Shown here one piece after another: positions 16,522-21,648 of a stretch of 64,000 nt of DNA (within the stretch, counting starts at the first letter, position 1; each line of letters starts with the position of its first letter). The notes under the pieces were generated by a model. The model was not told the origin of the DNA. It did no database searches and worked only from the letters and a program-made list of their open reading frames with translations. Source of the DNA: Deltaproteobacteria bacterium (GTDB lineage: Bacteria; Myxococcota_A; Polyangia; Polyangiales; Polyangiaceae); the NCBI GenBank assembly GCA_016875405.1, contig VGRJ01000011.1, forward strand, positions 1 through 64,000, in the 5' to 3' direction. The translations under genes and the position numbers were made by a program.

Positions 16522-17291
16522 GTGGCGTTTGAGGAGCTCCGCGTTGGCTTCGAGACTGGCAACCTGGTCCTCCTGCGGCGGATCGGGGCCGGGGCGATGG
16601 GGACGGTCTGGCTCGCCGAGCACCGGACGCTCCGGACGCGCGTCGCCGTGAAGTTCGTGACCGAAGAGCTCCTGCTCGGCGACCCTGTCGCGCTCGAGCG
16701 CTTCGCGCGCGAGGCGGAGATCCTCGCCAGACTGAAGAGCCCGCACATCGTCCAGGTGCTGGACCGTGCGATGACGAACAGCGGCGTGCCCTACCTGGTC
16801 ATGGAGCTGCTCGAGGGGGAGACGCTGTCTCGCCACCTCGCGCGCAGGGGGCCCACGTCACTCGCGATCGTTCGGCGCGTCGTGGAGCACGTTGCCAAGG
16901 CCCTCACGAAGGCACATGCGCTCGGCGTCGTGCATCGCGACATCAAGCCGGACAACATCTTCCTCGCGCGTACCGACGAGGGTCTCGTCTGCAAGGTGGT
17001 GTCGGCCTCGGCGCGGCAGGCCTCGTCGCAGGGGCGGTCGCCGGGTTGATGACATTTGTCAAGGTCGGTCAGCTCGGCGACGCGTGCCCGGGAGGTCGTT
17101 GCCCGGGGAGCGCGCGCAATCTGCATGCGTCGATGGTGACCTCGGCCACGGTCGCGGATGTGGCGCTCCCCATCGGTGCAGCGCTCGTCGGTGCCGGGCT
17201 CGTCGGCGTTGTGGTGACGAGGCCTTCGGACTCGAAGCTCAGCGTGAGCCTCGCTCCGAGGGGCGTCGTCGTCGAAGGGAGGTTCTGGTGA
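16522..17291 (+). pseudogene. Ser/Thr kinase N-terminal half joined out of frame to the C-terminus of an unrelated membrane protein
   Basis: Kinase motifs GAGAMGTVWLAEH, AVKF, HRDIKPDNIF, then loss before DFG and a stop at 17049. The other frame continues GVGLGAAGLVAGAVAGLMTFVKVGQLGDACPGG…ATVADVALPIGAALVGAGLVGVVVT…VVVEGRFW* to 17291. Confidence 0.75.
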
Positions 17292-17977
17292 GCGCGCGAA
17301 GCGGCGGTCTCGTGGTCGTCTCGCTGGGGCTCACGGCATGTCAGGGGCTCGCCGGTGGAGGCGATTTCGAGTTCACGTCAGCGTCGAGCGCGTCCTGCGT
17401 CGAGGTCGCGTCGTCGGTCGCGGTCTCGAGCGTTGCCTCGTCTGTCTCGGCGTCTTCTTCCTCGTCCGCGTCGACGGGCGGAGGCGGAGACGGTGGAGCA
17501 GGTGGCGCGTCGTCGGTCGCCTCGTCGGGGAGCGCCTCGTCGGGGAGCGGGCCTGCCTGCGGCGATGACCTCGCGCCCGTCGGAGGCGCGTGCCCGGCGG
17601 CCTGCACAGACTGCGTGAACGGCGTGTGTCGGATCGCGTGTGACAGGTCGTCTGGCTGCATGCTCGCGACACTCGCTTGTCCCAAGGGATTTCGCTGCAC
17701 GGTCGAGTGCACGAACGACGACGCCTGCTCAATGGCGACCATCGATTGCCCGGACGCCCACTCCTGCTCGCTCGTGTGCAACGGAGCCGCGGCATGCAAG
17801 GACGCGAAGCTCCTCTGCGCGGACGACGCGCCCTGCGGGGCGACGTGCGGCTCGACCACGGCCTGCAACGGCCTCACGATCGACTGCGGCGCCGAGAAGT
17901 GCAGCGCCATGTGCGGCGCGGGCTACAAGACGCCCACCGTAACGTGCGGCTCGTCGTGCAGCTGTACGCCCTGCTGA
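17288..17977 (+). CDS. Cys-rich putative lipoprotein with 23-residue periodic cysteine repeats
   Basis: GTG start; lipobox-like LTACQG; Ser/Ala/Gly linker; C-x6-C-x5-C-x3-C-x5 periodic region. Confidence 0.75.
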   Translation: MSARSGGLVVVSLGLTACQGLAGGGDFEFTSASSASCVEVASSVAVSSVASSVSASSSSSASTGGGGDGGAGGASSVASSGSASSGSGPACGDDLAPVGGACPAACTDCVNGVCRIACDRSSGCMLATLACPKGFRCTVECTNDDACSMATIDCPDAHSCSLVCNGAAACKDAKLLCADDAPCGATCGSTTACNGLTIDCGAEKCSAMCGAGYKTPTVTCGSSCSCTPC

Positions 17978-18011: not shown

Positions 18012-18893
18012 TCAGACGACGAGGCCGTTGGCGACGCGCAACAAGTAATCGCCGTAGCCGCTCTTCACGAGTGGCTCGGCCAGCGCGCGCAGCTCCTCCG
18101 CGTCGATCCAGCCCATGCGGAAGGCGACCTCCTCCGGGGCTGCGATCTTCAGCCCCTGCCGGGACTCCACCGCCTGAACAAAGCTCGCGGCCTTGAACAA
18201 ATCGTCGTGTGTCCCGGTATCGAGCCAAGCGTAGCCGCGCCCAAGCGTCTCGACGCGGAGCTTCCCGCGCCCGAGGTAGACCTTGTTGACGTCGGTGATC
18301 TCGAGCTCGCCACGCGCGGAGGGCTTTAGGTTCGCGGCAATGTCGACGACGTCGTTGTCGTAGAAGTAGAGCCCCGTCACGGCGTAGTTCGACCGCGGGG
18401 CCTTCGGCTTCTCCTCGAGGCCCACGGCCTTGCCGGCCGCGTCGAACTCGACGACGCCGTATTGTTCCGGTTGGACGACGGGGTACGCGAAGACCGTGGC
18501 ACCTTCGCCACCTCGCGCCGCGCGTTGAAGGCTCTCCGAGAGCCCGTGCCCATAGAACACGTTGTCTCCGAGGATGAGCGCACAGCCGTCCGCGCCGATG
18601 AACTCACGTCCGATGAGGAACGCCTGCGCGAGCCCCTCGGGCTTCGGCTGCACTTCGTAGCGGAGACGGAGCCCCCAGGCCGAGCCATCGCCGAGCAGGC
18701 GCACGAACTGGCTCTGATCCTCGGGCGTCGTGATGACGAGGATGTCGCGGATCCCCGCGAGCATCAGCGTCGTCAGCGGGTAGTAGATCATCGGCTTGTC
18801 GTAGAGCGCGACGAGCTGCTTGCTGATCGCCTTGGTCACCGGATAGAGGCGCGTGCCCGAACCGCCCGCGAGGATGATCCCCTTCTCGATCAT
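18012..18893 (-). CDS. rfbA: Glucose-1-phosphate thymidylyltransferase
   Basis: [40 protein letters not shown]…[14 protein letters not shown]…[13 protein letters not shown]. Confidence 0.96.
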
Positions 18894-18951
18894 GGGCAGA
18901 GCCGTACCACACCCGGCCTCGAGCGTCGTTGTCGCCCCGTTGCGACGAGCC

Positions 18952-19500
18952 TCAGTGAGGGAGCGCGCCTTCGGGCACGTCGCGGAGCCGAGGGTAGACG
19001 GCGTCCTTCGCCGAGAGCGCGGGAGCTTCGAGCGGCCAAGCGATGCCGAGGTCCGGGTCATTCCATAGGACGCCGTGCTCGTCGGTTGGCGAGTAGAGAT
19101 CGCTGCACTTGTAGGAGAAGAGGGCGTGCTCGCTCGTCACGCAGAAGCCGTGGGCGAAGCCTGCGGGGACGAAGAGCTGTCGGCGGTTCTCGGCGCTGAG
19201 CTCGACCATCACGTGTCGGCCGAAGGTCGGCGAGCCTTGGCGCACGTCGAGCGCGACGTCGACGACGGTCCCCTCGAGCACCTGGACCAGCTTCGCTTGC
19301 GGCCGCGGGTTCTGAAAGTGAAGGCCACGCAGGACGCCCCGCGCGGAGCGCGACACGTTGTCTTGGACGAAGTCGCACGCGATGCCGGCGGCGCGATAGC
19401 GCTCGGCGTGAAAGCTCTCGAAGAAGAAGCCTCGCGCGTCGCCGAACACCTTGGGCTCGATGATCAACACGCCAGGGAGCGCCGTCTCGATCACGTTCAT
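18952..19500 (-). CDS. rfbC: dTDP-4-dehydrorhamnose 3,5-epimerase
   Basis: [30 protein letters not shown]…[12 protein letters not shown]…[12 protein letters not shown]. Confidence 0.96.
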
Positions 19501-19626
19501 GCCCTCCGGGATAGCGCGTCCGGGAAGCCGATTGAAGCGCGCGTCGGAGCGAACCTCGGGGTGGCGAGCGAGGGCCCCCGCTCCCCGACCTCCCGCGCCT
19601 CGCGGTCCTCGGGTAAGGTTCGCGGC

Positions 19627-20517
19627 GTGAAGGTCGTCGTCCTGGGGGCCAACGGACAGGTCGGGCATGAGCTCGTCGGAGCGCTCGCGCCGTGCGCGGA
19701 GGTCACCGCGCTGGGGCGGCGAGGAGGCGATCTCGCCGATCTCGACGGACTTCGCGAGACGCTGCGTGCGCTCCGCCCCGACGCGGTCGTCAACGCGGCT
19801 TCCTACAACGACGTCGACGCAGCCGAGCGGGAGCCCCACGCGGCGCTGCGCGTGAATCGCGATGCGGTCGAGCTGCTCGGACGCGAGGCACTCCATTTGC
19901 GTTTTGCGCTCGTTCACTACTCGACCGACTTCGTCTTCGACGGTCGCGGCAAGCGACCCTACGTCGAGACCGACGAGCCCTCGCCGCTCGGGGCCTACGG
20001 GCGCTCGAAGCTCGCGGGAGAGCGCGCGCTCGAGGCACTCGGGGCCCCCGCCATCGTGTTCCGCACCGCGTGGGTCTACAGCCTGCGACGCAAGAGCTTC
20101 GTCTCGACGATGTTGAAGCTCGGCCGCAGCCGACCTCACCTCCGCGTCGTCTCCGACCAAGTGGGGTCGCCCACCTTCTGCCGCGACCTCGCCGTCGCGA
20201 CCGCGCTCGTCTTGCATCGGCACCGCGACGGTGCCTTCGAGGCCTTCCTCGAGGCTCGCGGCATTTATCACCTTGCGGGCTCCGGCGCCGTAAGCCGCGC
20301 CGAGCTCGCTCGCGCGACCCTGGCGCTCGCGCGGCATCCCGAGGGGCAGCCCATTGCGGAGGTCGAGGACGTTCCGACGAGCGCATTCCCATTGCCCGCC
20401 GCTCGTCCGGCCTACGCGCCGCTCGATGGCGAGAAGACTCGTACGAGGCTCGGCGTGGCGCTCCCTCCTTGGCGCGAGAGCCTCGCGCGGGCTCTCGCCG
20501 ACGAGGAGCGTCCGTGA
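19627..20517 (+). CDS. rfbD: dTDP-4-dehydrorhamnose reductase
   Basis: VKVVVLGANGQVGHELVGAL…PDAVVNAASYNDVDAAE…YSTDFVFDG; GTG start at 19627. Confidence 0.94.
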   Translation: MKVVVLGANGQVGHELVGALAPCAEVTALGRRGGDLADLDGLRETLRALRPDAVVNAASYNDVDAAEREPHAALRVNRDAVELLGREALHLRFALVHYSTDFVFDGRGKRPYVETDEPSPLGAYGRSKLAGERALEALGAPAIVFRTAWVYSLRRKSFVSTMLKLGRSRPHLRVVSDQVGSPTFCRDLAVATALVLHRHRDGAFEAFLEARGIYHLAGSGAVSRAELARATLALARHPEGQPIAEVEDVPTSAFPLPAARPAYAPLDGEKTRTRLGVALPPWRESLARALADEERP

Positions 20518-20580
20518 AGGGACGAACGCTCTTCGATCCGTGCTAGCAAGGCGCGTCTACCCGGGAGAGCCTTTCACCCC

Positions 20581-21648
20581 ATGAGCGCTCGATTCATCGT
20601 CACCGGCGGCGCCGGCTTCATCGGTGCGAACCTCGTCCACCACCTCCTGCGCGAGCGTGACGACGCGCACGTCGTGGTGCTCGACAAGCTTACCTACGCC
20701 GGAAACCTGGACAATCTGGCGGCGGTCGAGCGGTCACCCCGCTACGAGTTCGTGCGCGGCGACATCTGCGATCGCGAGCTCGTGCGCGGGCTCTTCGCGC
20801 GTGTGCGTCCCACGGTCGTGTACAACCTCGCGGCCGAGTCTCACGTCGATCGCTCGATCGATGGCCCCGGCGATTTCGTGAGGACGAACGTGACCGGCAC
20901 CTTCGAGCTGCTCGACGCGGCGCGCGGTCACTTCGCGACCCTCGCGGGGTCGGAGCGCGACGCCTTTCGGTTCTTGCACGTCTCGACCGACGAGGTGTTC
21001 GGCTCGCTCGGGGCCACTGGTTACTTTACCGAAGAGACTCGCTACGCGCCGAACTCGCCTTACTCGGCCTCGAAGGCCGCCGCCGACCACCTGTCCCGAG
21101 CGTGGTTTCACACCTACGGGCTGCCCGTTCTGACGACGAACTGCTCGAACAACTACGGCCCCTATCAGTTCCCCGAGAAGCTCATCCCGCTCGTGACGCT
21201 GAACGCGCTCGAGGGCAAAGCGCTGCCTGTTTACGGAGACGGTTCCAACGTGCGCGATTGGCTCTTCGTGGGCGACCACTGCGAGGCGCTCGCGGCGGTC
21301 GCGGCGCGCGGCGTGCTCGGCGAGACGTACAATGTCGGAGGGAACAGCGAGCGCACCACCCTCGAGGTCGTTCATGCGATCTGCGACGCGCTCGACGAGT
21401 TCTCCCCACGCGCAGGAGGTAGCTCGTACCGCGAGCAAATTCGCTTCGTGACCGACAGGCCAGGGCATGACAAGCGCTACGCCATCGACGCCTCGAAGCT
21501 CGCGCGTGAGCTCGATTGGCGGCCGAGACACGACTTTGCCGACGGGCTGCGCGGGACCGTTCGTTGGTACCTCGACAACCGCTCCTGGTGCGAGCGGATC
21601 ACGACCGGCACCTACGCTCGCGAGCGACTCGGCCTCCATCAGGGGTAG
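20581..21648 (+). CDS. rfbB: dTDP-glucose 4,6-dehydratase
   Basis: MSARFIVTGGAGFIGANLVHHLL…LAAESHVDRSIDGP…YSASKAAADHL…NCSNNYGPYQFPEKLIPL. Confidence 0.97.
   Translation: MSARFIVTGGAGFIGANLVHHLLRERDDAHVVVLDKLTYAGNLDNLAAVERSPRYEFVRGDICDRELVRGLFARVRPTVVYNLAAESHVDRSIDGPGDFVRTNVTGTFELLDAARGHFATLAGSERDAFRFLHVSTDEVFGSLGATGYFTEETRYAPNSPYSASKAAADHLSRAWFHTYGLPVLTTNCSNNYGPYQFPEKLIPLVTLNALEGKALPVYGDGSNVRDWLFVGDHCEALAAVAARGVLGETYNVGGNSERTTLEVVHAICDALDEFSPRAGGSSYREQIRFVTDRPGHDKRYAIDASKLARELDWRPRHDFADGLRGTVRWYLDNRSWCERITTGTYARERLGLHQG

Follow-up and report, generated by a model that had tools for sequence, protein, structure and literature searches.

A predicted beta-solenoid domain with four cysteines per 23-residue coil in putative surface lipoproteins of myxobacteria

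The Tenebrio antifreeze protein is a disulfide-braced beta-solenoid. Disulfide bracing of solenoids is likewise known from other antifreeze proteins, such as ChloroIBP (PMC4838330). In myxobacteria, Cys-rich tandem repeats are found in surface proteins such as TraA (TIGR04201), for which a stalk role has been suggested (PMC3325183). Finally, the Knotted Solenoid of Brevundimonas carries a conserved Phe, followed three residues later by a Cys, at its coil starts; its crystals contained no disulfides, half of its members come from Caulobacteraceae, and its defining feature is a 3_1 knot formed by skip-and-backtrack coils (PMC13123833).

Here we describe a Cys-rich lipoprotein gene, which we call D, in the window (the whole 64,000-nucleotide stretch of myxobacterial DNA that was analysed; Table 1). 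The coding sequence has a GC content of 0.84 at third codon positions as against 0.55 at first positions, and its signal peptide ends, as is typical of bacterial lipoproteins, in a lipobox closing with Cys (LTAC, residues 15-18, with the Cys18 codon at 17339-17341). The Cys-rich domain begins at residue 90 and makes up the remainder of the protein. As judged by these sequence features, D is a real-looking, intact gene that encodes a predicted surface lipoprotein: the lipobox suggests lipidation and, taken together with the linker, points to a location on the cell surface.

Table 1. Features of D and of the gene remnants preceding it (window coordinates).
Feature	Position	Strand	Basis
K remnant (5' part of Ser/Thr kinase gene)	16570..16980	+	Pfam Pkinase 4.7e-26, profile positions 3-136 of 263
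T remnant (3' end of TPR/PEGA membrane-protein gene)	16962..17291	+	47% identity to residues 230-339 of intact sister T
GGGAGG, ribosome-binding-like, 5 nt upstream of GTG	17277..17282	+	sequence
Lipoprotein gene D, 229 aa, GTG start, stop included	17288..17977	+	translation; GC3 0.84; homologues of same layout
Lipoprotein signal peptide with lipobox LTAC at its end	17288..17341	+	sequence; lipoboxes of relatives
Ser/Gly/Ala-rich linker, 71 residues	17342..17554	+	composition; similar linkers in relatives
Cys-rich beta-solenoid domain (predicted), 140 aa, 26 Cys	17555..17974	+	family alignment; AlphaFold2 pLDDT 94.7, pTM 0.89
N-terminal cap and partial coil 0	17555..17656	+	Cys conserved in alignment; predicted strands E19-21, E24-29
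Coil 1, CMLATLACPKGFRCTVECTNDDA	17657..17725	+	sequence; AlphaFold2
Coil 2, CSMATIDCPDAHSCSLVCNGAAA	17726..17794	+	sequence; AlphaFold2
Coil 3, CKDAKLLCADDAPCGATCGSTTA	17795..17863	+	sequence; AlphaFold2; co-loss of second and third Cys in relatives
Coil 4, CNGLTIDCGAEKCSAMCG, short loop between second and third Cys	17864..17917	+	sequence; AlphaFold2
Cys-rich C-terminal cap, AGYKTPTVTCGSSCSCTPC	17918..17974	+	conserved in alignment; predicted strand E128-130

The first-pass annotation had proposed that the domain is built of C-x6-C-x5-C-x3-C-x5 units, and this repeat is real: four units lie in a single reading frame at 17657-17917, with the 6/5/3/5 spacing exact in units 1-3 and with four residues instead of five between the second and third Cys of unit 4. 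Its four units stand, while two flanking elements had gone unnoticed, namely the partial coil 0 (C-x4-C-x3-C-x5) on the N-terminal side of the array and the conserved Cys-rich cap that follows it. Of the 92 residues of the array 16 are Cys, and 10 pairs of these stand at lag 23. None of 100,000 composition-preserving shuffles reached 10 Cys pairs at lags 22-24 (the maximum was 9), and the shuffles together with the homologues rule out chance or low complexity as the origin of the repeat. The homologues keep the 23-residue period, which is by far the commonest among the relatives, and the gap between the first two Cys is six residues in 291 of 312 of their units.

AlphaFold2, supplied with an alignment of 25 family sequences, predicts that the domain folds into a regular beta-solenoid with coils of about 23 residues (mean pLDDT 94.7, pTM 0.89), in line with the stacked solenoid first suggested and not an irregular fold. 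Paired strands are placed at 39-41/47-52, 62-64/71-75, 85-87/94-98 and 108-110/116-120 (domain numbering), and partial coil 0 and the cap contain strands as well. A long relative of 344 aa with roughly 14 coils is likewise modelled as a many-coil solenoid (pLDDT 87.7, pTM 0.84; the C-terminal end is less sure), and both models display the stacked coils, short parallel strands and constant period of beta-solenoids. Foldseek found no convincing match among solved structures (best E values 1.0 and 0.37). Strand positions assigned as facing inward, judged from how conserved and variable positions alternate and not from coordinates, are conserved Ile, Leu or Val, and the outward ones vary freely. 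The alignment of relatives contains no invariant polar residue, no conserved surface residues and no conserved binding patch. Together, the variable outward positions and the lack of an invariant polar residue speak for a surface that displays or binds, and not for an enzyme.

How the cysteines might pair is suggested by the pattern of their loss among relatives. In coil 3, the second and third Cys (alignment columns 89/95) are both kept in 74 of 82 relatives and both lost in the remaining 8, with no single loss (Fisher p 3e-11, uncorrected for shared ancestry); the corresponding pair of coil 2 (columns 66/72) is lost jointly in both cases of loss. The replacements at the co-lost pairs differ (G/L, A/L, A/M, S/V and G/T). 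The third Cys of coil 4 (column 118) is always lost together with a cap Cys (column 133; 7 of 7), which fits the shorter loop in this coil. In coils 1-3, neither the first nor the fourth Cys varies among the relatives; by elimination, the fourth Cys of a coil probably pairs with the first Cys of the next, 5 residues away. The relatives most often have 26 Cys, and the number is even in 53 of 79. Since co-loss occurs within coils, the disulfides probably clamp loops inside each coil, one pair (second to third Cys) per coil. The paired losses therefore lend indirect support to the disulfides postulated at the outset, whereas the ladder between stacked coils into which they had been arranged is disfavoured, at least for the second and third Cys. 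In one relative (L127:2012-3040), several coils lack both of these Cys and have longer loops instead, which is consistent with pairing within the coil.

Searches of Pfam-A and NCBIfam returned no family for the domain (the best match, DUF6897, has an E value of 0.47 and was seen in one member of the family), and no recognisable relative was found among PDB sequences, so that these three collections offer no known family for it. Within the same order, relatives are present in 51 of 184 genomes (E<=0.01), some of which carry 9-10 copies; in the 5.02 Mb source genome (218 contigs) a single paralogue lies on contig C44. Across the phylum, the profile matches proteins in 61 of 379 genomes (E<=0.001). 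A scan of public-genome contigs with a six-row alignment yielded nine named loci, all from Polyangiaceae, Polyangia, Myxococcales or Deltaproteobacteria MAGs; the same scan with the single D protein gave no match. For phyla outside Myxococcota, coverage is that of this exact-pattern scan, and a wider occurrence is possible. No match to the domain was seen in phage and plasmid records and no relative was confirmed in two scans of IMG/VR, and we reject an origin from a mobile element. As far as sequence can tell, the domain represents an uncatalogued family with members across the myxobacterial phylum.

In almost all cases the domain comes last in the protein, and a lipobox is present in many relatives; other members have long Cys-rich N-terminal regions, these also without a confident family match. 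In one relative (L029:375-1400), the solenoid domain is preceded at the N-terminus by a separate array, made of short Cys repeats of another kind with Gly/Asp linkers. Coil number ranges from 3 (in L031) to roughly 14. A related group has many more coils, each slightly shorter; profile comparison connects it to the main group with 97.0% and 99.5% probability, scores that are inflated by the Cys-rich composition. Relatives with far longer solenoids (roughly 14 coils), also lipoproteins, are encoded at L115:2390-3421, L118:2033-3064, L119:1569-2600 and L121:2197-3219, in the first three of these loci with a kinase gene directly upstream. At another locus, two adjacent reading frames for solenoid lipoproteins (L126:530-1708 and 1140-2519) lie behind a TPR/PEGA gene.

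In the window, D is preceded by remnants of two genes (together 16570-17291): a Ser/Thr kinase gene (K) breaks off inside the kinase domain and continues, in another frame, into the surviving 3' end of a gene for a TPR/PEGA membrane protein (T), the TGA of which overlaps the GTG start of D. The broken K and T reflect a deletion or an assembly error. An intact T gene occupies the same place upstream of D in a sister genome (G160), the D copy of the genome G159 comes after the tail end of a T-like gene, and a T gene (C44:31728-32666) likewise precedes the D paralogue of the source genome; across the genus, T precedes D in all 7 copies that no contig end truncates. The label TPR/PEGA rests on a confident PEGA plus TPR match in L146, the closest T protein having a sub-threshold TPR match.

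Gene order was also counted over 109 non-redundant D loci, which are not fully independent, so that Poisson probabilities computed from their counts are too small, although the excess of T is large. T lies within 2 kb of D in 27 of the 109, compared to 2.5-4.2 (about 3.5) expected from a density of one T per 82-136 kb, and within 400 nt in 19, of which 15 have T upstream on the same strand. Neither T nor K was detected within 400 nt in 82 loci, partly due to short contigs, and the D-T partnership is therefore not universal. At 18 loci a kinase gene is found within 2 kb, compared to 7-11 expected at about one kinase per 30-50 kb; once this density is counted, K is weakly enriched and the TPR/PEGA link is far stronger, and we do not regard the kinase as the main link in the neighbourhood. 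The full K-T-D order is found in L142/L040, L139/L047 and L146. Downstream of D, 18012-21648 carries what we take, by sequence, to be dTDP-rhamnose-type sugar genes, and glycosyltransferases as well; neither group shows any sign of belonging to the lipoprotein unit.

On balance, with slightly better than even confidence, we favour a role for D as a rigid surface-display or binding head that works with a TPR-based, sometimes kinase-containing, envelope system. After export, the N-terminal Cys of D would be lipidated and the Ser/Gly/Ala linker would reach outwards from the envelope, while the last 140 residues would form a compact beta-solenoid with about five coils, every coil consisting of two short strands and tight connecting loops. 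The loops would be closed by disulfides, from the second to the third Cys within a coil and probably from the fourth Cys to the first of the following coil, with a last disulfide joining coil 4 and the cap. An interior of Ile, Leu, Val and cystine under variable outward positions would make for a rigid, protease-resistant display or binding head. If D is expressed together with T, and sometimes behind K, this head would most likely serve a T-based envelope complex. Co-expression with T, the display or binding role and any contact with T or K are inferred, as are lipidation and the surface location, whereas the domain, its predicted fold, the co-loss of Cys, the family and the gene order come from computation.

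It is possible, if unlikely, that the domain has a structural role alone, serving as a stiff spacer or as part of a matrix without a specific ligand, comparable to the stalk proposed for the TraA repeats. The unconserved surface and the variable coil number, 3 to roughly 14, would suit such an element, but in nearly every case the domain forms the C-terminal tip and is not a stalk with another domain above it. Somewhat less probable is a receptor head, in which the solenoid would bind a specific extracellular ligand and relay this by way of T to the linked Ser/Thr kinase, so that K-T-D would act together as a sensor. Both the same-direction K-T-D order in the loci named above, with its remnants in the window, and the diversification of outward residues among paralogues (up to 10 copies per genome) are in keeping with this; on the other hand, the alignment of relatives reveals no conserved binding patch, and the excess of kinases is weak for genes so common. 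More doubtful still is the extension of this reading to a receptor type spread across the phylum, with variable disulfide-clamped solenoid heads, each paired to a TPR/PEGA transducer of its own and in some cases to a eukaryotic-like kinase as well, that would signal from outside to inside. While the Cys are dense and regular enough to bring a metallothionein-like metal-binding array to mind, we consider this very improbable: D would be exported to where thiols oxidise, the Cys are lost in pairs to hydrophobic or small residues, and no conserved His/Asp ligands are seen in the relatives' alignment. Least credible of all is an ice-binding solenoid with Thr-X-Thr faces since, although Thr is common on both sides of the inward residue of strand 1 and Cys-rich ice-binding solenoids have precedent (PMC4838330), Thr-X-Thr occurs in at most two of the four coils in any of 82 relatives and in no coil of the window protein (TLA, TID, KLL, TID), and there is no contiguous Thr-X-Thr array on one face.

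To our knowledge, the inputs of the large myxobacterial kinase and TPR/PEGA sets are mostly unknown, and the gene order around D offers a first handle on their partners; the phylum-wide receptor type, should it prove true, could explain what some orphan kinases sense. The family itself combines a clear sequence signature and a confident fold prediction with a natural test of disulfide pairing, and a repeat that extends from 3 to roughly 14 coils is a possible stable scaffold.

Among predicted structures (BFVD), the nearest folds are those of two uncharacterised Terrestrivirus proteins, A0A3G4ZKG2 and A0A3G4ZPF6 (Foldseek probability 0.99-1.00, rmsd 2.6-2.8 A over 91-94 columns). With E values of 0.03-0.05, 13-20% identity and TM scores of 0.38-0.54, this match between models is a lead and not a relationship, and may reflect convergence or transfer. 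The Knotted Solenoid, too, is bacterial and has Cys that recur at set places in its coils, but D has four Cys per coil with evidence for losses in pairs, and the Knotted Solenoid was not among the matches of the D model in the PDB fold search. With TraA, D, as a predicted surface protein of myxobacteria, shares Cys-rich tandem repeats; however, the NCBIfam scan gave no match at E<=1, to TIGR04201 or any other model, no PA14 domain or MYXO-CTERM is seen in D, and the domain is the tip of a predicted lipoprotein. The Tenebrio antifreeze protein and ChloroIBP (PMC4838330) resemble D in being secreted and in having short regular coils with Cys at recurring places. They differ from D, which has no Thr-X-Thr array, has 23-residue coils with four Cys each and is a predicted lipoprotein, and the search of PDB sequences found nothing similar to its domain. 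Matching neither the antifreeze solenoids nor TraA in sequence or in defining features, the family nevertheless falls, by prediction, into a known fold class, the beta-solenoid.
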